55,183 nucleotides of DNA from contig QHSL01000080.1 in assembly GCA_003220435.1 (NCBI GenBank), forward strand, positions 1-55,183, read 5' to 3'. The position numbers were made by a program, and so were the translations under genes. Below, one piece after another: positions 37,458-50,807 of this stretch. How positions within the stretch are numbered: position 1 is the first letter of the stretch; each line of letters starts with the position of its first letter. The DNA is from Candidatus Rokuibacteriota bacterium. GTDB taxonomy: Bacteria > Methylomirabilota > Methylomirabilia > Rokubacteriales > CSP1-6. The notes below the pieces were generated by a model. The model did not search any database. It worked only from the letters and a program-made list of their open reading frames with translations, and was not told where the DNA came from.

Positions 37458-39047
37458 ATGAAAGTTTTCACTGTGGGCGTCGTCCTTCTCGCCGTCGCCT
37501 TCGGAGCGAGCGGCACCGCCTTCGCGCAGAAGGTCCCGGCGCCGCGCGGCGAGCTTCGCGTCGTCGACAAGAGCCCGATCAACTGGATCTACGTCACGTA
37601 TCACGTGTTCGAGCACCTGATGGAGCTCGACAAGGACGGGACACTTGTGCCGCGCCTGGCCACCGGCTGGCAGTGGCTCGACGATCGCACCCTCGAGGTC
37701 AAGCTGCGGCAAGGCGTCAAGTTCCACAACGGCGAGAAGTTCGACGGCGAGATCGTCAGGCTCAACTGGGAGGAGAACACCAAACGGCGTCAGCCGCACA
37801 TCATCGGCCAGTACATGAACTTCAAGCCGGGATCGAAGCTCGAGATCATTGACCCGCGGACGATCCATTTCGTGTTCCCGGAACCCGATGGCGGCGCCCT
37901 CGTGAAGCTCTCGGTCATGCACATCGCGAACCGGCAGTTCTATCGGGAAGTGGGCTGGGGCGAGGAGCACTGGTGAATCATCGATGGCGCGGGCCCGTGG
38001 GGCACGGGACCCTATCAGCTCGTGGAGGGCGTCTCCGCGCCGGCAAAGCGCTCGGGGCGGGTCATTCTCGAAGCTAACGCCAACTACTGGGACAAGAGCC
38101 GCTCGCCCCGAGTGAAGCGAATCGTCTTCGACAACACGCTCAGCCTGAAGGACGCGCTCGAGCTCGTCAAGTCGGGCGAGGGCCGAGTCGATGTGATCAC
38201 GGATCTGAGCCCCGTGGAAACGCTGCGAGTGGCGCAGAGCGCCTCGGCCACCGTGGTGAAGAGCCGCGGAAGCCTCCAGACGGTGTTCGGGCAGTTCAAC
38301 ATGCTGAAGACGGGAAGCCCGTGGCGAGACGTCCGCCTTCGGCAGGCGCTGAATTACGCCATCAACAGGAGCGACATGATCGAGTACGGTGCCAGGGGGA
38401 ACGGTGTCGTCATCCCCGCACTCATCCCGGCTCGGGGGTTCGGCCATGACCCCCAACTCGCCCCGTACCCCTTCGATCCGGGCAAGGCCAAGGATCTGCT
38501 CCGTCAAGCGGGCCATCCCGACGGCCTCGCCGTGAGCCTGATCGCGTCTGAAGAGATGGAGGCTCAGGCCACCGTGATCAGCAAGATGCTCGAGCAAATC
38601 GGCCTCAAGGTGGAGCTTCGGATCCTCGATCCCGTCACCTACAATAAGAAGACGCTCTTGAGCGGTCTGGACCAGCCGGCCGAGAAGCAGACGTGGGATA
38701 TCGCGCTCACGGCGTATCTCGACCCGTTGAACTTCCCCGCGTATCTCCTCTATCAAGGTTACGCCCTCGACGGGCCCAACGACTGGGTCGTCGAGCAACC
38801 GGCGCTCCGACAGCTCTACGAGCAAGTGCTGGGCACCGTGGATCGGGACAAGCAGCGGGTGATCTATCAGCAGATGGAGCGACACACTCGCGACCAGGCG
38901 TACTTCCTGTTCCTCTACAATCCCGTCCAGCTCTACGCCGTCAACAAGGATGTGCAGTTCGTGCCGTACGTGTCGAATCTCAACTTCCTCGAAAGCTCGG
39001 TCACGGACCGGCACTGGTCGGTGCGGAAGGGGGCGGTGAAAAAGTGA
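37458..39047 (+). CDS. ABC-type peptide/organic solute-binding protein (family 5) with an in-frame UGA at codon 173
   Basis: 529 residues if the UGA is read through. The signal peptide is MKVFTVGVVLLAVAFGASGT, cleaved near AFAQ. The SBP_bac_5 pattern is clear: VFEHLMELDKDGTLVPRLAT, GWQWLDDRTLEVKLRQGVKF, then, after the UGA (37974-37976), GPWGTGPYQLVEGVS, NYWDKSRSPRVKRIVF, RLRQALNYAINRSDMIEYG and YQQMERHTRDQAYFLFLYNP. Both parts lie in the same frame with no other stop for 357 codons. The stop separates ...GWGEEHW from IIDGAGPWGTGPY, in the middle of a conserved domain. Options: nonsense mutation, sequence error, or recoding as selenocysteine (a hairpin follows at 37991). ATG 37458 has the better signal peptide; ATG 37437 is an alternative. 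No permease genes are adjacent. Confidence 0.8.
37991..38012 (+). other. hairpin 14 bases downstream of the in-frame UGA (SECIS-like geometry)
   Basis: CCCGTG (37994-37999) pairs perfectly with CACGGG (38003-38008) around a GGG loop. It is extended by GGG (37991-37993) with CCC (38010-38012) across one bulged A. The loop starts 23 bases after the UGA and begins with G, within the loose rules for bacterial SECIS elements. The same bases encode the conserved GPWGTGP, so chance is possible. Confidence 0.35.
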
Positions 39048-39454
39048 TGACCGGGATGGCGATCGCGCTCGTGGCCGGAATGACGCTGACCGCGGGCGCG
39101 GCGCTGGCGAGCGAAGCCGCGGTCTTCGATCTCGCCAAAGAGCTCAGCGGCGCGGGCCAGGGACGCCGTGCGGTCAGCCGGTCCCTGATCAAGATGCCCG
39201 AGTACACGGTGAACGCGGTGGCCGTGAACGACGAGATCCCGATGCACCGACACGACGACGGCAGCCACGTGCTCTACATCGTGAGCGGACAGGGGACGGT
39301 CATCCTCGACGGCAAGTCGGTCGCGCTCAAGCCCGGTCTCGTCGTGCACATTCCCCAGGGGATCACCCACAGCATCAAGGTCGAGGGCGGGAAGATGACG
39401 TTCGTCGATTTCGTCCAGCACGCCCCCGATCCGAACCAGGCCGGGAAGAAGTAG
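39047..39454 (+). CDS. exported cupin-domain protein
   Basis: 135 aa. ATG 39047 overlaps the solute-binding protein stop (TGATG); GTG 39044 is possible. Signal peptide MTGMAIALVAGMTLTAGAAL. The single cupin has motif 1 IPMHRHDDGSHVLYIVSGQG, with His-x-His and a His in place of the usual Glu, and motif 2 GLVVHIPQGITHSIK with the fourth His. Metal binding in the periplasm is likely; activity unknown. It is tightly coupled to the binding-protein gene and 30 bases upstream of the kinase, so it may handle the same ligand. Confidence 0.78.
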   Translation: MTGMAIALVAGMTLTAGAALASEAAVFDLAKELSGAGQGRRAVSRSLIKMPEYTVNAVAVNDEIPMHRHDDGSHVLYIVSGQGTVILDGKSVALKPGLVVHIPQGITHSIKVEGGKMTFVDFVQHAPDPNQAGKK

Positions 39455-39484: not shown

Positions 39485-42412
39485 ATGAGCGGGAGGCGGA
39501 TCCGGTTCTGGCGGGATCTCAGCATCCAGAACAAGGTGCTCGTGATCATCCTGCCGCTCATCATCGTCCCGATGCTCATCCTGGCCGCCGTCGGCTTCGT
39601 GACGTCGAGCCGCGAGGCGGCGACGCTGGCCACCCGATATCTCAGCCAGCGCGAGACCGACCTCAGGACGATCGCCGAGAACCCGGCGATTCCGAGCTAC
39701 TTCAACAACAAGGCCTACGGGCTCACCGAGGAAGCGGAAGTTTTACGGCGCGAGCTCGAGCGCTCTCTGAAGCGGTTCGCCGACCGGAGCAACAGCGTCG
39801 AGCTCATCTATCCCGAGGTCCGCTACGTCGACCAGCGCGGCGATGAGATCGCCAAGGTGCTCGATGGCCAGATCAGGAGCGACCGCGGTCACGTCGCCGA
39901 CGCTCCGTTCTTCGCGGTCGTTAAACGATCGCGCCCCAACGAGACCTACCTCTCGCCCGTCGCGGCCAGGATGACGTACGCGATCCCCGTATATCAGGCG
40001 GGAGCCGAAGGGCGTGCGCCGACGTTTCAGGGCGCGGTGGTGCTGGATTTCGTCTATCCGATCAAGGAATTCCGGCGCACTACCGTCGCCATCGCCGCCA
40101 CGTTCCTCGTCATCACGGCGCTCAGCCTGAGCATCGCCGTCTTTATCACGATCAACCGGGTCCGACGACTCACCAACCCGATCCGCCGGCTGGCCGAGGC
40201 CGCCAACCTCATCGCGGCCGGCCAGCGGTCGGTGAACGTCGCGATCGACTCCAAGGACGAGGTCGGTCGTCTCGCGACCTCCTTCAACGAGATGGCGGTG
40301 AGTCTCGCGCGAAACGAGATCGCGCTCGAGCGCAAGGTCACCGAGACCCAGACACTCTACGAAATCGGCCAGGAGATCGGCGCCCAGGTCGCGCTCGGCC
40401 CGACGCTGCAGCTCATCGTCGATCGTGCCCGCGATCTCCTTCGGGCGGAGGGCAGTCGACTCGCCCTGCGGCAACCCGGGAGCGATACGTTTGCGATCCG
40501 GGCGCACAGCGGCAGCGTCACCGACTCGTTCGCCGTCATGCGCTTCAGGCCTGGAGAGGGATTCACCGGGCGCGTGATCCTGACCGGCGCGCCGATGATC
40601 GTCAAAGACTATCGCCAGGAGTTTCCGGACAGCCCGTTCCTCGCGGCCGTCGAAGAGGCCGGGGTCCGATCCCTCATCGCGGTGCCCCTGAAGGCGCGAG
40701 GAGCCCTCATCGGCGTGCTCGCGGTCGACAGCCACGCTCCCCACGCCTTCCGCGAGGAGGACCAACAGCTCTTGAGCGCGCTGGCCGATCAGGCCTCCAT
40801 CGCGATCGAGAACGCTCAGCTCTACGAGCAGGTCAAACGACACGCGGAAGAGCTGGAGGCCAAGGTCGAAGCGCGGACGCGCGAATTGCAGGAAGCCAAC
40901 CGGCGGCTGGAGGACGCTTCCCGTCACAAGTCGGAGTTCCTCGCGAACATGTCCCACGAGCTGCGGACTCCGCTGAACGCCATCATCGGCTTCACGCGCC
41001 TGGTGATGCGGCGGTCCCAGGAAGTGCTGGCGGCCCGGCAGTACGAGAATCTGGAGAAGATCCTGATCAGCGCCGAGCACCTGCTCGGGCTCATCAACGA
41101 CATTCTCGATCTCTCGAAGATCGAGGCCGGCCGGATGGAGGTGCGGCCCGGCAGCGTCGACCTCGCGGTCCTCGTCGACGACTGCCTGCGCACGGTCGAG
41201 CCGATGATCAGGAGCGAGCACCTGCAGGTGCGGAAAGACATGGCGGCCGACTTGCCGCCGCTGTGGACCGACCGGGACAAACTCAAGCAGATCCTCATCA
41301 ACCTGCTGAGCAACGCGATCAAGTTCACCGACGCGGGAACGGTGACCGTGAGCGCGCGGCCCGAGAACGGGCGGATGGCGATCGCCGTCGCCGACACGGG
41401 CATCGGCGTTCCGCCGGACGCGCTGGAGCTGATCTTCGAGGAGTTTCGTCAGGTCGACAGCAGCTCCACCCGGAAGCATGGCGGCACGGGTTTGGGGCTC
41501 TCGATCAGCCGGCACTTCGCGCGGCTCCTGGGCGGCGACGTCTCGGTGCGCAGCACGCTCGGGGCCGGCTCCACCTTCACGCTGATCCTTCCGCTCCGCT
41601 ACGAGGTGTCCTCGATCTCGACGCGGGCCGCCGCGGCGGCCTTGCTCGACGAACGGGCGGTCCCACCGGACGGCAAGGTGGTCCTGGTCATCGACGACGA
41701 CCCTGACGTGATCTACCTGCTACGAGAGAACCTCGGCGATGCGGGGTATCGGGTGGTCGGCGCGCTCAGCGGTCAGGAGGGCCTTCACAAGGCCCGCGAG
41801 CTCAGGCCGTTCGCGATCACGCTCGACATCACGATGCCCAACAAAGACGGCTGGGAGGTTCTGCACGAGCTCAAGGCGCATCCCTCGACCAAGGACATCC
41901 CGATCATCGTCGTCTCGATCGTCGACAACAAGGAGCTCGGGTACCGGCTCGGGGCCTTCGACTACCTCCTCAAACCAATCGACCGTGACGCGGTCTTCGC
42001 CGCCCTCGGACGCATTGCTCCGCCGCACGGCCGTCTCCTGGTCGTCGACGACGACCCGCTGGTGGTGGACATGGTGGGCCAGTTGCTCGAAGGCGAGCCG
42101 TACGAGGTCGAGACCGCGGCGGACGGCCAGGAGGCGCTCGAGGCGATCTCCCGCCGCCGTCCGGACGTGATCCTGCTGGACCTCCTCATGCCGAGAGTGG
42201 ACGGATTCGCCGTCATCGAGCATCTCCGTCAGGATCCGGAGTACGCACTGATCCCGGTGATCGTGCTCACCGCGAAAACGCTCACGGCGGCGGAGCATGC
42301 CGTGCTCGACCAAAGCGTTCTCAAGGTGATCCAAAAAAGCGGGCTCGACCGCGACCGCTTCATCCAGGAATTGCGAAGCACCTTGCAGGGCTATCGCGGC
42401 GGGACTACGTGA
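39485..42412 (+). CDS. hybrid sensor histidine kinase (TM-sensor-TM-HAMP-GAF-HisKA-HATPase-REC-REC)
   Basis: 975 aa. Membrane helices at about 18-40 and 201-223 bracket a periplasmic sensor of about 160 residues. HAMP lies at about 224-278, GAF at about 300-445 and a coiled coil at 446-480. The phospho-acceptor His491 is in ANMSHELRTPLNAIIGF. The ATPase has the N-box NLLSNAIKF, VADTGIGVP and HGGTGLGLS. Two receiver domains follow with phospho-Asp781 (ITLDITMP) and Asp899 (VILLDLLMP). It should autophosphorylate on an extracytoplasmic or GAF-bound cue and relay to the response regulators encoded 10 and 400 bases downstream. Confidence 0.92.
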   Translation: MSGRRIRFWRDLSIQNKVLVIILPLIIVPMLILAAVGFVTSSREAATLATRYLSQRETDLRTIAENPAIPSYFNNKAYGLTEEAEVLRRELERSLKRFADRSNSVELIYPEVRYVDQRGDEIAKVLDGQIRSDRGHVADAPFFAVVKRSRPNETYLSPVAARMTYAIPVYQAGAEGRAPTFQGAVVLDFVYPIKEFRRTTVAIAATFLVITALSLSIAVFITINRVRRLTNPIRRLAEAANLIAAGQRSVNVAIDSKDEVGRLATSFNEMAVSLARNEIALERKVTETQTLYEIGQEIGAQVALGPTLQLIVDRARDLLRAEGSRLALRQPGSDTFAIRAHSGSVTDSFAVMRFRPGEGFTGRVILTGAPMIVKDYRQEFPDSPFLAAVEEAGVRSLIAVPLKARGALIGVLAVDSHAPHAFREEDQQLLSALADQASIAIENAQLYEQVKRHAEELEAKVEARTRELQEANRRLEDASRHKSEFLANMSHELRTPLNAIIGFTRLVMRRSQEVLAARQYENLEKILISAEHLLGLINDILDLSKIEAGRMEVRPGSVDLAVLVDDCLRTVEPMIRSEHLQVRKDMAADLPPLWTDRDKLKQILINLLSNAIKFTDAGTVTVSARPENGRMAIAVADTGIGVPPDALELIFEEFRQVDSSSTRKHGGTGLGLSISRHFARLLGGDVSVRSTLGAGSTFTLILPLRYEVSSISTRAAAAALLDERAVPPDGKVVLVIDDDPDVIYLLRENLGDAGYRVVGALSGQEGLHKARELRPFAITLDITMPNKDGWEVLHELKAHPSTKDIPIIVVSIVDNKELGYRLGAFDYLLKPIDRDAVFAALGRIAPPHGRLLVVDDDPLVVDMVGQLLEGEPYEVETAADGQEALEAISRRRPDVILLDLLMPRVDGFAVIEHLRQDPEYALIPVIVLTAKTLTAAEHAVLDQSVLKVIQKSGLDRDRFIQELRSTLQGYRGGTT

Positions 42413-42422
42413 AACGAGCGTC

Positions 42423-42788
42423 ATGAAGAGAATTCTGGTCGTCGAGGACGTGGAGTTCAATCGGGATCTCCTCGTGCAGCTGCTGGAGGACGACTATGAG
42501 GTCCTGACGGCGGTCAATGGGGAAGAGGGCATCGGGCTCGCGGAGCGCGAGCGCCCCGACCTCGTCCTGATGGATCTCTCGCTGCCGGTGATCGACGGCT
42601 GGGAGGCGACCCGGCGCATCAAGGCGAACCCGGATCTTAAGGGCATTCCCATCATCGCGCTGTCGGCGCACGCGATGCTCGGCGACGAAGACAAGGCTCG
42701 CGAGGCGGGGTGCGACGACTATCTCAGCAAACCGCTGAACGATACCCTGCTCTTCGCCAAGCTGGCCAAGTTCCTGGGCCAGACATAG
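42423..42788 (+). CDS. single-domain response regulator (DivK/CheY-like)
   Basis: 121 aa, receiver domain only. ILVVEDVEFNRDLLVQLL provides the acidic pocket, LVLMDLSLPVIDGWEATRR the phospho-acceptor Asp, ALSAHAM the conserved Ser/Thr position, and DDYLSKPLN the Lys. With no output domain, it likely shuttles phosphate between the hybrid kinase and another partner or blocks a protein by binding. It starts 10 bases after the kinase stop. Confidence 0.9.
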   Translation: MKRILVVEDVEFNRDLLVQLLEDDYEVLTAVNGEEGIGLAERERPDLVLMDLSLPVIDGWEATRRIKANPDLKGIPIIALSAHAMLGDEDKAREAGCDDYLSKPLNDTLLFAKLAKFLGQT

Positions 42789-42813: not shown

Positions 42814-43875
42814 GTGCGATCCAGGATCCTGATCGTCGACGACGAGCCATTCAACGTCGACTACCTCGAGCAGGAGCTGGAGGACCTGGGCTACGAGACG
42901 GTCAGTGCCGGCAACGGCAAGGAGGCGGTCGACCAGGTTGCGAGCGACCCCCCCGATCTGATCCTTCTGGACGTGATGATGCCGGTGATGGACGGCTTCA
43001 CGGTCTGCCGCATCCTCAAGGGTTGCGAAGAGACACGGCTCATCCCCATCGTCATCATGACCGCGCTCGACGGCATGGAGGATCGCATCCGGGGGATCGA
43101 GGCCGGCGCCGACGATTTCCTCACCAAGCCCGTGAATCCGCGCGAGCTGATCGCGCGCATCCAGACCGCGCTGAAGCTCAAACACGCCGTCGACAAGAAG
43201 CTCGGCGAGCTCTCGAAGATCAAGGATCACTTCGCCAAGTTCGTCCCGGAAGCCGTCAAGCGCCTCGTCGCGGCCAATCCCGATGCCCCCGAGCTGGCGA
43301 AGCACGAGCGAGATGTCTCGGTGCTGTTCGTTGACATCAGCGGCTATACGAGTCTCGCCGATCGGCTCCGGGCGGACGTTCTCAACGCGTTGGTGGAGCG
43401 ATACTTCTCGACGTTCCTGGATCATATCCGTGGGGCGGGAGGCGACATCAACGAGACCGCCGGCGACGGGTTCATGGCGATCTTCCAGGACGCCGAGGCC
43501 GGAGGGCACGCGGTCACCGCGATCGACAGCGCGGTCGCCCTGCTCGGCGCGACGGACGCGCTCAATCGCGAGAATACCGAGCATCCGCTGGCGATTCACA
43601 TCGGCGTCAACTCCGGGGTGGCGCTCGTCGGCTCCACCCGCTTCGAGGGGGCACGCGGAGCTCGCTGGACCTTCACCGCGAGTGGCCCGGTGACGAACCT
43701 CGCCGCGCGTTTGGCGGCTGCGGCGCGGGCGGGCCAGATTCTCGCCGGCCCCGAAACCGTGCGCCGGCTAGGGCATCGTTTTCGCTTGGAACGACTCGGC
43801 CGCGAATCGCTGAAGAACATCGTCGAGCCGGTCGAAATCCACGGCGTACTCGGGCGAGCGCCGGCCGACGGCTAG
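42814..43875 (+). CDS. receiver domain fused to class III nucleotidyl cyclase
   Basis: 353 aa from GTG 42814. The receiver (1-120) has phospho-Asp53 and Lys105. A linker helix (122-160) leads to a class III cyclase domain (165-345) with metal Asp174 (LFVDISGYTSL) and Asp218 (ETAGDGFMAIF), and transition-state Asn295/Arg299 (VTNLAARLAAAA). The two base-recognition positions are not those of adenylate cyclases: Lys is Glu214, and Asp/Thr is Pro292. Glu at the first site is the guanylate-cyclase type. It probably makes a cyclic nucleotide in response to phosphorylation. Ends 7 bases from the convergent dehydrogenase gene. Confidence 0.88.
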   Translation: MRSRILIVDDEPFNVDYLEQELEDLGYETVSAGNGKEAVDQVASDPPDLILLDVMMPVMDGFTVCRILKGCEETRLIPIVIMTALDGMEDRIRGIEAGADDFLTKPVNPRELIARIQTALKLKHAVDKKLGELSKIKDHFAKFVPEAVKRLVAANPDAPELAKHERDVSVLFVDISGYTSLADRLRADVLNALVERYFSTFLDHIRGAGGDINETAGDGFMAIFQDAEAGGHAVTAIDSAVALLGATDALNRENTEHPLAIHIGVNSGVALVGSTRFEGARGARWTFTASGPVTNLAARLAAAARAGQILAGPETVRRLGHRFRLERLGRESLKNIVEPVEIHGVLGRAPADG

Positions 43876-43882
43876 AACTCGT

Positions 43883-44995
43883 CTAGGGCACGAGCGCCGC
43901 GCGCGTGATGCGCGTCGTGTCCTTCGCGTGCCACTCGGAGTCGGTGAAGGCCTGGTTGATCTTTTCCAGCGGGTACTTGTGTGAGATGAGCCGATCGAAA
44001 GGCCAGCGCGCGCGGTTGCGCACGAGGAAATCGAGCGCTCGCGGAATCACCCAGGGATCGTACTGGATCACGCCCACGATCTTCTTCGAGCCCCACACGA
44101 GCAGGGACGGCTCGAGCTCGACCTTGGCTCCCCGGCTGATCGTCCCGATCTCGAGATAGGTGCCGCCCGAGCGGAGCATCTCGATGCCCTCGGGGATGAC
44201 CTGAGGGAACCCGACGAAGTCGCACGCGACGTCGGCCCCGCCGCTGCCGGTCCATTTGCGGACGAGGCCGACGCGCTCGCGGCGATCGGCAACCTCCTTG
44301 ACGTTGATCGTGTGGTCGGCGCCGAAGGCGCGCGCCAGCTCCAGCCTTCCCGCGAGCTGGTCGACGACGATCACGGTGGCGGCGCCCATGTCCTTGGCGA
44401 CGGCCGCCGCCTGGATCCCGAGGCCACCCGCACCCTGGATGACGACGGTGGAGCCGAACGTGAGCCCCGCCCGGTCGAGGCCGAAGATCACCTGGGACAG
44501 AGCGCAGTTCACCGGCGACACCAGCTCGTCGGCGAGCGCGTCGGGGACCACGAAGATCGCGCCCCGCGGCCGCAGGTAGTAGTACTCGGCGAAGGCGCCG
44601 TGGAAGTGCGGGAACTGTGAGGGCCCCAGCGGGCGCTCGATCTTCGCCGGGCACGCCGCCGGCTCGTTGTTGAGGCACGCATGGCAGCGCCCGCACGGAT
44701 AGAAGTACGTGTAGGCGACGCGGTCGCCTTCCTTGAGCGGCCGGCCGAGCGAGTCGGTCTTCACACGCGCGCCCAGACGCGCCACGCGACCCGTCATCTC
44801 GTGGCCGAAGATCCAGCCGTCCTCGGGCAGGCGCAGCGGCGCGTCCCCGCGCCAGAAATGGAGGTCCGAGCCGCAGACGTTGGCGAGCGAGACGCGGATC
44901 AGGACGGCGTCGGGCTCGACGTCGGGCAGGGGAAGCTCACGGAGCTCGAAGGCCTTGCCGGGGCCGAAGAAGACGGCGGCCTTCCCCGTGGTCAC
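43883..44995 (-). CDS. zinc-dependent alcohol dehydrogenase (MDR family)
   Basis: 370 aa. Catalytic zinc residues: Cys in [12 protein letters not shown] and His-Glu in [14 protein letters not shown]. The structural zinc loop is [20 protein letters not shown], with four Cys. The Rossmann motif is [20 protein letters not shown] with an Asp-type NAD preference (VVDQLAGRL). GTG 44995 overlaps the lysC stop (GTGA), so it is the last gene of the aspartate-family operon although its substrate has no obvious link to that pathway. Confidence 0.87.
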
Positions 44996-46215
44996 CGCGA
45001 GACTCCCGCGCCGACCTCGAACGCGTCGTGCAGCGCCCGCACCGCGAGCTCGGTGTATTTGTCCTCGATGACGCACGAGATGGCGATTTCGGAGGTCGAG
45101 ATCATCTGGATGTTGATGCCCTCGCGCGCCAGCGCCGCGAACATCTTCGACGCCACGCCCGAGTGGCTGCGCATCCCGACCCCCACGATGGAGACCTTGG
45201 CGACCCGCTCGTCGTGCGCGATGCCGCGCGCGCCGACGTCGCGCGCCACCCCCTCGAGCAAGGCGACCGCGCGCGCGTGGTCGCTGCGTGGCAGCGTGAA
45301 GGACATATCGGTGTAGCCGTCCTGGCTGATGTTCTGCACGATCATGTCGACGACGATGTTGCTGGAGGCGATCCCCCCGAACACCGCGGACGCGATCCCG
45401 GGCCGGTCGGGCACTCGCAGGAGAGAGATCTTCGCCTGGCTCCGGTCGTGCGTCACCCCGGTCACCACCGCCTGTTCCATGCCGAGCTCCTCCTTCGTCA
45501 CGAGCGTGCCCGGGTTCGGGCTGAAGGTGGATCGTACGTGGACCGTGACCCCGTACTTCTTCGCGAACTCCACCGAGCGGCTCTGGAGCACCTTCGCCCC
45601 GAGGCTCGCCAGCTCGAGCATCTCGTCGTAAGAGACGCGGGCGAGCTTGCGGGCGTCGGGAACGATGTTCGGGTCGGCGGTGAACACGCCGTCGACGTCC
45701 GTGTAGATCTCGCACACGTCCGCCTTCAGCGCCGCCGCGAGCGCGACCGCGGTGAGATCGGAGCCGCCGCGACCGAGGGTCGTGATCTCGTCCTGATCGG
45801 AGAGCCCTTGGAACCCGGCGACCACGGCGATCTCGCCGGCGTCGAGCGCCCGGCGCACGCGATCGGCGTCGATCTGGGTGATCCGAGCCTGCGTGTGCGA
45901 GTGATCGGTCCGCATGCCGACCTGCGGTCCGGTGAACGAGCGCGCCTTCACGCCGAGGGACTGGAGCGCCATCGCCAGCAACGCGATCGTGACCTGCTCG
46001 CCCGTCGCCAGCAGCATGTCCATCTCGCGAAGATCGGGAGTGGCGGAGATCTGGCGGGCGAGCGCCATCAGGCCGTCGGTGGTCTTGCCCATGGCCGAGA
46101 CGACGACGACCAGCTGGTTGCCGGGCGCGCTCGCCACCACCCGCCGGGCGACGTTCGCGATCATGTCGGCGTCGGCGACGGACGAGCCGCCGTACTTCTG
46201 AACGAGCAGCGCCAT
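44992..46215 (-). CDS. lysC: aspartate kinase
   Basis: 407 aa. It phosphorylates aspartate, the first step to lysine, threonine and methionine. The N-terminal kinase motif is [39 protein letters not shown] and [20 protein letters not shown] are substrate and ATP sites. Two ACT domains follow ([40 protein letters not shown]), so feedback inhibition by lysine and/or threonine is likely. It lies 12 bases after the YbhN-like gene. Confidence 0.94.
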
Positions 46216-46227
46216 AGCCTCAGAAAT

Positions 46228-47247
46228 CTAACACGGTTGATCGGTCCTCACGGACCTCGCTCCGACAACCGCCTCGCCCAGGCTCACGTGCTCGCGCAGG
46301 AGGTAGAGCCACCCCAGGAGCGTCACCGGCAGGATCTGGCTGGCGTGGAAGAGGATCGCGTAGCCGACGCCCGCCGACGGCCCGACGCCGAAGAGGCCGA
46401 CGGCGAGCACGGCGGCGGCGTGGAACACCCCGACGTAGCCGGGTGCCGACGGGATGGAGACGCCGAGCCCGACGAAGCCGAGCACCACCCAGCTCGCGAT
46501 GAAGGGCAGCCGGAGGTCCAGGGCGAGGAGCATCGTCCACGCGGCGAACGCGGGGATGAGCCACACGGCGAGCGTCCACGCCAAGAGCGGCGCCGCGTGC
46601 GCGGGCGCGCGGATCCCGTCGAGGCCGTGGACGAACGTCTCGAAAACGCGGAGCGCGCGGCGCTGGAGGCTGGGCCAGCGCCCGACCAGTCGCGTGATCA
46701 GCCGCGCGCAGCCGGCGGGCGCCACCGCGAGGGCGAGCAGGACCGCGACACCGGCGACGTCGATCGCCAGCACCACCAGGGCCGCGATCTCGAGAAACCG
46801 CGGAACCGGGACGAGGAGTACCAGGACCGCGAGGATCAGCACGACGGCCAGGCTGTCCAGCACGCGCTCGACGATGAGCGTGGCGAGCGTCGTCCAGAAC
46901 GGATGGGCTCGCGGGCCGGTGCCGCCGGCGGCTGCGCTCCAGCGCCGCGCGACCACGTAGACGCGCACGACCTCGCCGGCGCGGAGCGGCAGGACGTTGT
47001 TGGCCATATAGCCGATCATGATCGCCGGCGTGAGCCCCGGCGGGTTCGCGTGCGGTGGGAACAGGTAGCGCCAGCGTCGCGCCCGCACCAGGAGCTGGAG
47101 GGGCGCCAGCGCCGTCGAGAGGAGGACCCAGCCCCAGTGGGCGCCGCGAAGCTGGCGGCCGAGCTCCGCCAGGTCGACGCTGCGGAAGAGATAGACGAGC
47201 AGGGCGGCGCTGATCGCGACGCCGAGCAGGACCTTGAGCCGGCTCAG
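46228..47247 (-). CDS. YbhN/UPF0104-like membrane protein (lysylphosphatidylglycerol synthase TM family), probable CTG start
   Basis: 339 aa from CTG 47247, with about eight membrane helices. Family motifs: LVRARRWRYLFPP, IGYMANNVLPLRAGEVVRVY, VERVLDSLAVVLILA, and FVGLGVSIPSAPGYVGVFHA. The stretch before GTG 47088 (SRLKVLLGVAISAALLVYLF, RSVDLAELGRQLRGAHWGW) is typical family sequence, including the first helix, so the gene must start upstream. No ATG, GTG or TTG exists in frame there. CTG 47247 overlaps the thrC stop as CTGA, like the other junctions here. Function is probably lipid-related and is unknown; placement between thrC and lysC is odd. Confidence 0.82.
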   Translation of the reverse strand: MSRLKVLLGVAISAALLVYLFRSVDLAELGRQLRGAHWGWVLLSTALAPLQLLVRARRWRYLFPPHANPPGLTPAIMIGYMANNVLPLRAGEVVRVYVVARRWSAAAGGTGPRAHPFWTTLATLIVERVLDSLAVVLILAVLVLLVPVPRFLEIAALVVLAIDVAGVAVLLALAVAPAGCARLITRLVGRWPSLQRRALRVFETFVHGLDGIRAPAHAAPLLAWTLAVWLIPAFAAWTMLLALDLRLPFIASWVVLGFVGLGVSIPSAPGYVGVFHAAAVLAVGLFGVGPSAGVGYAILFHASQILPVTLLGWLYLLREHVSLGEAVVGARSVRTDQPC

Positions 47248-48302
47248 AGGCCGAGCTGCGCCAGAACGGCGTCGATCTGGGGCGGCACCGTGGTCGGCCG
47301 CGACGCGGACTCGAGCGCGGTGTCCGGGTCCTTGAGCCCGTGGCCGGTGAGCGTGAGGATGAGCGTCGACCCCGACTCGAAGCGGCCGGCCTTGATCGAC
47401 TTGATCAGCCCGGCCACGGTCGCCGCCGACGCCGGCTCCATGAAAATGCCCTCCTCGCGGGCCAGCAGGCGGTAGGCGCGCAGGATCTCTTCATCGGTGA
47501 CGATGTCCACCCAGCCGCGGGAGTCCTTCATCGCCTCGAGGGCGGGGCCCCAGGACGCGGGGTTCCCGATCTTGATCGCGGTCGCGACCGTGCGCGGCTC
47601 CTCGATGATGCGGTTCTCGTAGATCGGCGCCGCGCCCGCGGCCTGGAAGCCGACCATCCGCGGCAGCTCGCGCACGCGGCCGGCGCGGTGGTATTCACGG
47701 TAGCCGCGCCAGTAGGCGGTGATGTTGCCGGCGTTGCCGACGGGAATCAGGTGGTAGTCCGGCGCGCGCCCGAGCTGATCGCACACCTCGAAGGCGCCGG
47801 TCTTCTGTCCCTCGAGCCGGAACGGGTTCACGGAGTTCACCAGCGTGACCGGATGCCGCTCGGCGATCTGGCGGACGATCGTCAGCGCCTGGTCGAAGTT
47901 GCCGTCGACCATGAGGACCCGCGCGCCGTGGATGCCGGCCTGCGAGAGCTTGCCGAGCGCGATCGCGCCCTTCGGCACCATGACGAACGCGCGGATGCCG
48001 GCGCGCGCCGCAAACGCGGCGGCGGAGGCTGACGTGTTCCCGGTGGAGGCGCAGATGACGGCGCGGGCTCCCGTCTCGAGCGCCTTCGAGATGGCCATCG
48101 TCATCCCGCGGTCCTTGAACGAGCCGGTCGGGTTGAATCCCTCGCACTTGAGGTAGATCTGCATACGCGCGTCGGTCGCCTCGGCCAGCCGGGGCGCCGG
48201 GACGAGCGGCGTGTTGCCTTCGAAGAGCGTGACGACGGGGGTCTTGTCGGAGACCGGCAAGAAGTCCCGGTACTCCTCGATGACGCCCCGCCACGTCTTC
48301 AC
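47244..48302 (-). CDS. thrC: threonine synthase
   Basis: 352 aa. Converts O-phosphohomoserine to threonine. The PLP Lys is in FNPTGSFKDRGMTMAISKAL. CASTGNTSASAAAFAARAGI, VNSVNPFRLEGQKTGAFEV and the phosphate-binding VGNAGNITAYWRGYREY match the family. GTG 48302 overlaps the hom stop (GTGA). The long frame upstream is a shadow of hom. The position directly after hom fits the pathway order. Confidence 0.93.
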   Translation of the reverse strand: MKTWRGVIEEYRDFLPVSDKTPVVTLFEGNTPLVPAPRLAEATDARMQIYLKCEGFNPTGSFKDRGMTMAISKALETGARAVICASTGNTSASAAAFAARAGIRAFVMVPKGAIALGKLSQAGIHGARVLMVDGNFDQALTIVRQIAERHPVTLVNSVNPFRLEGQKTGAFEVCDQLGRAPDYHLIPVGNAGNITAYWRGYREYHRAGRVRELPRMVGFQAAGAAPIYENRIIEEPRTVATAIKIGNPASWGPALEAMKDSRGWVDIVTDEEILRAYRLLAREEGIFMEPASAATVAGLIKSIKAGRFESGSTLILTLTGHGLKDPDTALESASRPTTVPPQIDAVLAQLGL

Positions 48303-49624
48303 GCCGGTCCACCTTCCACCCGGATCATCGTCGTCGCGGTGGCGACGTCCGGCAGCCGGTCGATCGCGGCGAGCGCCCGACGCATGTCGAGCTCGCGCGC
48401 CTCGTGCGTCATCATGACGATCGGCACCGCCTCGCGGGGGGCGCGCTCCCGCTGCAGCACCGACGCGATCGAGATGTCGTGCTGGCCGAGAACGCCGGCC
48501 ACGCGCGAGAGGACGCCCGGCCGGTCCTGGGCCATGACTCTCAGGTAATAGCAGCAGCGCACGGTGTCGATCGAGCGCAGAGGCAGCGCGCCGGCGCCGA
48601 CCGCCGGCAGCTCGAGCCCGAGCGCCGGGATGCCATGGGCCGTGCGGCGCGCGATCTCGAGCACGTCCGACCACACCGCCGAGGCGGTCGGAAGCTGGCC
48701 CGCCCCGCGCCCGTAGAACATCAGGTCGCCGACCGCGTCGCCGGTGATGAACACGGCGTTGAAGACGCCGGAGACGGCGGCCAGCGGGGCCCGCGCCGGG
48801 ATCATCGTCGGGTGGACCCGGACTTCCACGCCCGTGCCACCCGAGCCGGCGTCGCCGGAGGTCTTCGCGATCGCCAGCAGCTTGATCCGATAGCCGAGGT
48901 CGCGCGCGTATGCGATGTCCTGCGCGGTCACCCGCGTGATCCCCTCGGTGTGGATGTCCTTGAGGTCGATGAACGTGCGGAACGCGATCGTGACCAGGAT
49001 CTGGAGCTTGTGGGCCGAGTCGAGGCCCTCGACGTCGAACGTCGGGTCGGCCTCGGCGTACCCCTGCGCCTGGGCTTCCTTGAGGACCATCGCGAAGTCG
49101 AGGCCCTCGTCGGTCATCTTGGAGAGGATGTAGTTCGATGTCCCGTTCACGATGCCGAACACCGACAGGATCCGGTTCGCGACGAGGCCTTCCTTGACGG
49201 CGCGGATCAGCGGGATGCCGCCGGCGACGGCCGCCTCGAACGCGAGCGTGACGCCGCGCCGGCGCGCCTCGTCGTAGAGCTCGGCGCCGTGATGGGCGAG
49301 GAGCGCCTTGTTGGCGGTGACCACGTGCTTGCCGGCGGCGAGGGCTCGCAAGATGAACGAGCGGGCCGGCTCGAGGCCGCCGACCAGCTCGATCACGACG
49401 TGGATCGAGGGATCGTCGAGGACCCGCGCGGCGTCGGTCGTCATCGGCAGCTTCGCGAGGTCGAGCCCCTCGCGCCGGCGCGTGACGTCGACGTCGGCGA
49501 CCGCGGCGAGCCGCAGCCGGCAGCCGGCGCGCTCCTCGAGGGTGGCGCGCTGCGCGTCGAGGAGCTTGACCACGCCGGCACCGACCGTGCCGAGACCGAG
49601 CAGCCCGAGCCGGACTTCGTTCAT
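48299..49624 (-). CDS. hom: homoserine dehydrogenase
   Basis: 441 aa. Reduces aspartate semialdehyde to homoserine. The NAD(P) motif is VRLGLLGLGTVGAGVVKLL. TANKALLAHHGAELY, FGIVNGTSNYILSKMTDEGL and EADPTFDVEGLDSAHKLQIL are family signatures. A C-terminal ACT domain (VMAQDRPGVLSRVAGVLGQH) predicts threonine feedback. It starts 13 bases after the aminotransferase stop. Confidence 0.94.
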   Translation of the reverse strand: MNEVRLGLLGLGTVGAGVVKLLDAQRATLEERAGCRLRLAAVADVDVTRRREGLDLAKLPMTTDAARVLDDPSIHVVIELVGGLEPARSFILRALAAGKHVVTANKALLAHHGAELYDEARRRGVTLAFEAAVAGGIPLIRAVKEGLVANRILSVFGIVNGTSNYILSKMTDEGLDFAMVLKEAQAQGYAEADPTFDVEGLDSAHKLQILVTIAFRTFIDLKDIHTEGITRVTAQDIAYARDLGYRIKLLAIAKTSGDAGSGGTGVEVRVHPTMIPARAPLAAVSGVFNAVFITGDAVGDLMFYGRGAGQLPTASAVWSDVLEIARRTAHGIPALGLELPAVGAGALPLRSIDTVRCCYYLRVMAQDRPGVLSRVAGVLGQHDISIASVLQRERAPREAVPIVMMTHEARELDMRRALAAIDRLPDVATATTMIRVEGGPA

Positions 49625-49637
49625 GCGATGGGCGGGA

Positions 49638-50807
49638 TCAGCGGGTGACGTTCTTGAGGCCGCGCAGGGCCTGGCGAATCCGCTGTTCGTTCTCGACCAG
49701 CGCGAACCGCACGTAGCCCTCGCCGTACTCGCCGAAGCCGATGCCGGGCGACACGGCGACCTTGGCCTCCTGGATGAGCAGCTTCGAGAACTCCAGCGAG
49801 CCCAGCGCCCGGAACGCCTCGGGGATCGGCGCCCACACGAACATCGTGCCCTTGGGCTTCGGCACGTGCCAGCCGAGCTTGTTGAGACCGTTGACCAGGA
49901 CGTCGCGCCGCCGCCGGTGGACCTCGACGATGTCGGTCACGACGGACTGATCGCCCTCCAGCGCGATGATGCTGGCGATCTGGATGGGCTGGAAGGCGCC
50001 GTAGTCGAGGTAGCTCTTGATGCGCGCGAGGGCGTGGACCATCCGCGCGTTGCCGCAGACGAAGCCCATCCGCCAGCCCGGCATGTTGTACGACTTCGAC
50101 AGCGAGAAGATCTCGACGCCGACGTCCTTGGCCCCGGGCACCTGCAAGAACGAGGGCGGCTGGTAGCCGTCGAAGGCGAAGTCCGCGTACGCGAAGTCGT
50201 GGACGACCATCAGCCGATGCTCGCGTGCGAACGCGACGACCTTCTCGAAGAACGGGAGATCCACGCACATCGTCGTCGGGTTGTGAGGAAACGACAGGAT
50301 CAGGAGCTTGGCTTTCGGCCACGCGAGCCGGGCGGTCTCCTCGAGCCGGGCGAAGAAATCGCCGTCGGGCGTCAGCGGCACCGATCTCAAGTCTCCGTCG
50401 GCGATGACCACCGAGTAGGCGTGGATCGGGTACGTCGGGTTTGGGACGAGCACGCCGTCCCCCGGCTGCAGGACGGCCAGCGCCAGGTGCGCCAGCCCCT
50501 CCTTGGCGCCTATCGTGGCGATCGTCTCCGATTCGGGATTGAGCTCGACGCTGTATCGATCGCGGTACCACTTCGCGATCGCGGTGCGCAGACGCGTGAT
50601 GCCACGCGACGCCGAGTACCGGTGGTTCTTCGGATTCTGCGCCGCCTGGACGAGCTTGTTGACGATGTGCTTCGGGGTTCCGAGATCGGGGTTCCCCATC
50701 CCGAGATCGATGACGTCCTCGCCGCGAGCGCGCGCCTTGCTCTTGAGGTCGTTGACGATCGCGAAGACGTACGGCGGCAGGCGTTTGATTCGGTAGAAGT
50801 CATCCAT
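49638..50807 (-). CDS. class I/II aminotransferase, alanine- or aspartate-type (AlaC-like)
   Basis: 389 aa. PLP fold type [50 protein letters not shown], and the PLP Lys in [16 protein letters not shown]. Closest by pattern to AlaC-type glutamate-pyruvate aminotransferases, but aspartate aminotransferase is possible and would suit its place as first gene of the hom-thrC-lysC operon. ATG 50807 is preceded by GGGAG. A good sigma-70 promoter lies just upstream. Confidence 0.85.

Follow-up and report, generated by a model that had tools for sequence, protein, structure and literature searches.

The question raised by this locus is whether a TGA codon lying inside a gene for a family-5 solute-binding protein (SBP) is a defect, of the gene or of its sequence, or whether it is read as selenocysteine. 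The gene belongs to a Candidatus Rokuibacteriota bacterium and is carried by contig QHSL01000080.1, of which positions 1 to 55,183 (55,183 nucleotides, hereafter the window) were analysed. The elements of the gene that bear on the question are the following:

37458..39047, + strand: family-5 solute-binding protein (PF00496) gene, 529 codons with the UGA read through, final stop TGA
37458..37526, + strand: Sec-type (export) signal peptide, likely cleaved between AFA and QK (23 aa), without a lipobox Cys, inferred from inspection of the translation
37974..37976, + strand: putatively recoded UGA, selenocysteine 173, motif HW-U-IID, with TGA at one column in three genes of two lineages
37991..38012, + strand: SECIS-like hairpin whose 9-bp stem has a single bulged A and whose GGG loop (38000-38002) lies 23 nt past the UGA

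According to a sequence-only reading of the window, one TGA at codon 173 splits an otherwise open 529-codon SBP gene, the two halves of which share the frame and carry family motifs. Re-checking the frame confirmed the first statement, since it runs from ATG 37458 to TGA 39045-39047 and is otherwise open over 529 codons plus stop. The second is also borne out, because each half matches PF00496 alone (56.9 and 129.2 bits), the first covering positions 1-97 of the profile and the second positions 114-360. Significant Pfam and PDB sequence matches to SBP_bac_5 proteins span the whole protein, and no internal stop was found within the match in any of the other SBP hits of the same genome (0/52). 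An AlphaFold2 model built from the single sequence was unusable (pLDDT 34), and the placement of the selenocysteine relative to the binding cleft is consequently unknown.

The closest relative, 68% identical, comes from a different family within the order (genome G037) and has TGA likewise at codon 173. A protein-level search of plasmids revealed one further clear member, on plasmid pNYY1_1 of Methylobacterium radiotolerans NYY1 (NZ_CP090580.1), which is 36% identical in the alignment and carries TGA at the aligned column. The two loci are:

L061:12423-14015: orthologue of the window SBP in G037
L079:4956-6443 (NZ_CP090580.1 278133-279620): SBP homologue in Methylobacterium

The Methylobacterium gene has a strong AGGAGG site ahead of its ATG (4956) and ends 82 nt upstream of the annotated selB; the annotation of NZ_CP090580.1 shows no protein-coding gene at this locus (the collection omits pseudogenes). 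Inspection reveals an export signal in the proteins of the window and of G037, neither of which contains any Cys, but none in the Methylobacterium protein, which contains five and is possibly a cytoplasmic form. In the three-way alignment the most conserved 16-residue stretch begins two residues before the UGA column, 12 of its residues being invariant versus 28% overall, and the block around the UGA reads HW-U-[IV]ID..GPWGTGP. A 14-mer extending across the UGA, TGGTGANTCATCGA, is common to the three genes and was present in none of the other loci included in that comparison.

Among 95 genomes of the phylum, only the genome of the window and G037 carry this family, and a Cys form was not found in these genomes, in plasmids or in two short-pattern genome scans. 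When genome contigs were scanned using the C-terminal half or a two-member alignment, short patterns matched but no relative was confirmed, and none appeared in the viral contigs scanned. The family counts three members only. SBP hits in two other genomes (G013 and G034) had been flagged for an internal TGA and were discarded, the codons being ordinary terminators. The homologue alignment proposed by the sequence-only reading, in which Cys or UGA at this column would favour recoding, therefore gave UGA in the G037 and Methylobacterium genes, Cys not being seen. The same reading held that varied non-Cys residues at the column would refute the idea. Such residues do occur in the nearest paralogues (22-30% identical), which have a gap or A, D, G, K or R near the UGA column, but these ordinary SBPs are not orthologues of the window protein and lack the HWUIID loop.

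The genome of the window harbors a tRNA-Sec with UCA anticodon, selA (568 bits) and selB on one contig, and a selD with its own in-frame TGA; in other words, selA, selB, selD and tRNA-Sec, for which the sequence-only reading had advised a search, were all found. In G037, selB, tRNA-Sec and a UGA-containing selD were detected. In both genomes the selD UGA is followed, 20-21 nt downstream, by an 8-bp stem with a 3-4 nt loop, a geometry resembling that of the hairpin after the SBP UGA, and SelD is itself a selenoprotein. Concerning the arrangement of these genes, selA, selB and tRNA-Sec are clustered in a region of about 5 kb in the window's genome (G000:C138; L059, L051), and the in-frame TGA of both selD genes (L082, and L081 from position 1501) is near the N-terminus, in the motif AG-U-A.K. 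Second, weaker tRNA-Sec-like matches over the Rfam cut-off (about 52 bits) were observed in two relatives, at G037:C127:4890-4983 and G036:C243:4342-4434. On the Methylobacterium plasmid only selB was found, without selA or tRNA-Sec; the search covered the plasmid, the chromosome being outside its scope. A formate dehydrogenase was considered as the reason for the plasmid selB and rejected, since it has no in-frame UGA, which leaves the SBP as the UGA gene beside selB.

The hairpin of the window gene, GGGCCCGUG-GGG-CACGGG(A)CCC, folds as the sequence-only reading had described it (37991-38012, GGG loop, 23 nucleotides from the UGA). Its value as evidence for a selenoprotein is more limited than that reading implied. 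The limits published for bacterial SECIS elements (loop of 3-9 nt, G in the first two loop positions, spacing of 16-37 nt and MFE <= -7.5; PMC13188914) are satisfied by the hairpins of all three SBP genes, but the controls often pass a similar rule. An equally SECIS-like hairpin arises at 24% of the other codon positions of the window gene and in 68% of its synonymous recodings, and over the SBP genes the corresponding values are 24-33% and 68-70%. The peptide GPWGTGP is self-complementary when encoded by GC-rich codons. Synonymous sites in the SECIS region are no more conserved than elsewhere, and the hairpin energy was dropped as evidence, being no better than in the controls. An Rfam search of the UGA region returned nothing relevant and is uninformative, since it missed the SECIS of SelD as well. 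The hairpin is thus compatible with a SECIS and provides no independent proof of recoding.

A single in-frame stop is a priori most simply explained by a nonsense mutation, a pseudogene or a sequencing or assembly error, and mutation or base error had been named as the simpler alternative by the sequence-only reading. This explanation can be set aside, its likelihood being negligible, because the identical UGA is shared by three independent genes with up to 64% amino-acid divergence, one of them on a complete plasmid, and because purifying selection, as judged from codon substitutions, carries on past it. The dN/dS ratio between the window and G037 genes is 0.17 upstream of the UGA and 0.25 downstream, falling to 0.05 in codons +1 to +15 after it, and third-position GC is high on either side in all three SBP genes. 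A reassignment of UGA in the genetic code was ruled out, given that TGA ends 8 of the 12 window genes checked and is the own terminator of all three SBP genes; TGA being the usual terminator, UGA has not been reassigned genome-wide and this one would be recoded in its context. One might also imagine that the UGA is passed without selenocysteine, through readthrough by a near-cognate tRNA (Trp or other) of the kind that some hairpins are generally known to promote, or that a two-part protein is made by termination and reinitiation at the GTG located 45 nt downstream (38022). However, the 15 codons between the UGA and this GTG, the first possible restart, are the best conserved part of the gene and show 5 synonymous versus 1 non-synonymous change, and hence are translated; plain readthrough, in turn, is at odds with the presence of tRNA-Sec, selA, selB and selD and with the Methylobacterium gene directly adjoining selB. 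Both variants appear very improbable to us. We therefore assign a probability of about 0.9 to the recoding of UGA 173 as selenocysteine, whose insertion is inferred, no selenium detection data being available. Because the UGA has stayed in place in relatives as distant as a different family and a different phylum, the window SBP is very probably a selenoprotein that had gone unrecognised, and the earlier inference to that effect finds support in this conservation and in the sel genes. On the sequences at hand, the best reading is that of a new selenoprotein family without a known Cys form.

The remark that selenocysteine would be unusual for a solute-binding protein holds in part. No family-5 SBP is among the 119 prokaryotic selenoprotein families inventoried in 2026 (PMC13188914), but SaoX and SaoB, selenocysteine-containing substrate-binding proteins of ABC transporters (NF040735/NF040727), and Sec-BtuF are already on record (PMC13188914 Table 1). 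These proteins and the window SBP are alike as predicted selenoproteins of the solute-binding type. They differ in the motif, the former being listed with UxP, CUxxT and CxxU versus HWU[IV]ID in the present family, and in the partner, since the former are ABC-transporter families whereas the window SBP is linked to a histidine kinase; in an NCBIfam search the window SBP did not match the SaoX/SaoB models. DppA, NikA, GsiB, OppA and AccA (SBP_bac_5, PF00496) resemble it in sequence over the full length, but ordinary members of SBP_bac_5 have neither the HWU loop nor selenocysteine or Cys at the UGA column. SelD shares with it the genome and an in-frame UGA that precedes an 8-bp hairpin with a short loop, while being a cytoplasmic enzyme of a well-known family with a catalytic selenocysteine. 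The authors of deep-Sep state that their finder may miss selenoproteins without Cys homologues (PMC12013277). The UGA-bearing SBP family, for which none was found, looks like the kind that may escape it. Deng et al. (2026), as cited in PMC13188914, reportedly counted 63 selenoprotein genes in a single MAG of Methylomirabilota; their gene set might already include this family. The plasmid member has remained unannotated in the public record despite adjoining selB.

A remaining question concerns the function of such a protein, on which the genes downstream of it may shed some light:

39047..39454, + strand: small cupin (PF07883) with a signal-like N-terminus, its start overlapping the SBP stop
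39485..42412, + strand: hybrid sensor histidine kinase, the sensor part of which is confined, among the 95 phylum genomes, to the two that carry the SBP
42423..42788, + strand: stand-alone receiver sharing 81% identity with that of G037 (blastp)
42814..43875, + strand: protein with a receiver plus an adenylate/guanylate-cyclase domain, 78% identical to that of G037

The kinase comprises a TM segment, a Cache-like periplasmic domain of about 160 aa, a second TM segment, HAMP, GAF, HisKA and HATPase domains and two receivers, and its adjacent orthologue in G037 is about 75% identical; the stand-alone receiver was called by similarity to the receivers of the kinase and not by Pfam. The order SBP, hybrid kinase, receiver and receiver-cyclase is kept in the window and in G037, where no cupin was seen beside the SBP, including between it and the kinase. 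The sensor region of the kinase is present in 2 of the 95 phylum genomes, exactly the two with the SBP, so that both adjacency and co-occurrence rest on two genomes only. No such kinase lies alongside the Methylobacterium SBP.

Binding-protein-dependent sensor kinases and receptors are exemplified by LuxP-LuxQ, TorT-TorS and DppA-Tap. The resemblance of these systems to the present one lies in a periplasmic SBP gene adjoining that of a membrane sensor that possesses a periplasmic domain, and to our knowledge none of them uses selenocysteine. Since the SBP adjoins a sensor kinase in the two closest genomes, its selenocysteine is possibly used for sensing, and we give not quite even odds to the SBP serving a two-component sensor as its ligand- or redox-binding component, an interaction that is inferred in the absence of binding data. 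It cannot be excluded that the selenocysteine-containing SBP is a conventional binding protein for ABC transport, with permeases encoded elsewhere and the neighbouring kinase merely regulating it. This would be in agreement with the general knowledge that PF00496 proteins usually feed ABC importers, with the more than 50 SBP hits of the window's genome, which imply permeases elsewhere, and with best NCBIfam matches that are NikA/DppA/GsiB-like, even though all fall far under the cut-off. Against it, no ABC permease or ATPase gene was found next to the window SBP, neither kind lies between the SBP and the kinase module in G037, and the perfect co-occurrence is with the sensor domain of the kinase. 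While we hold a transport role to be a live, if rather doubtful, possibility, a binding-protein-dependent sensor is favoured because of the conserved kinase linkage and the lack of an ABC permease next to the SBP. The sensor role is possibly not universal in the family, given that the Methylobacterium protein has neither a signal peptide nor a kinase neighbour.

In the mechanism that we favour, the ribosome would read UGA 173 as selenocysteine by means of the downstream hairpin, SelB and tRNA-Sec, and the product would be an exported family-5 SBP with selenocysteine as its only chalcogenol residue. The residue would sit in the subfamily-specific loop H-W-U-[IV]-I-D, just ahead of the conserved GTGPY strand, and may contact the ligand, which we infer to be a soft metal, a metalloid or an electrophile/oxidant. 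It would more plausibly serve as a ligand or reactive nucleophile than in a dithiol redox relay, given the complete absence of Cys from the two closest members; by inference, the Cys-free window and G037 proteins also argue against an intramolecular selenenylsulfide as a general mechanism. The loaded SBP might then signal, through an inferred docking, to its neighbour, the hybrid histidine kinase with the Cache-like domain, from which phosphate would pass via the receiver to the receiver-cyclase. The full scheme, a selenocysteine-based extracytoplasmic sensor for a soft metal, metalloid or oxidant driving a cascade of histidine kinase, receiver and nucleotide cyclase, is put forward tentatively, on odds that we place below even. 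If this is true, a binding protein that contains selenocysteine and is linked to a sensor would show selenium to be used more widely than in redox enzymes alone; the SBP/kinase module is a compact and testable gene set.

The surroundings of the module differ on its upstream side: a cytochrome P460 gene lies directly upstream of the G037 SBP (L061:11836-12402), and a helix-hairpin-helix gene on the opposite strand occupies the corresponding place in the window. Beside the sensor module, on the minus strand of the window (44992-50807), are genes for an ACT-domain amino acid kinase, a PLP enzyme, a homoserine dehydrogenase and an aminotransferase, apparently a cluster for amino-acid biosynthesis.
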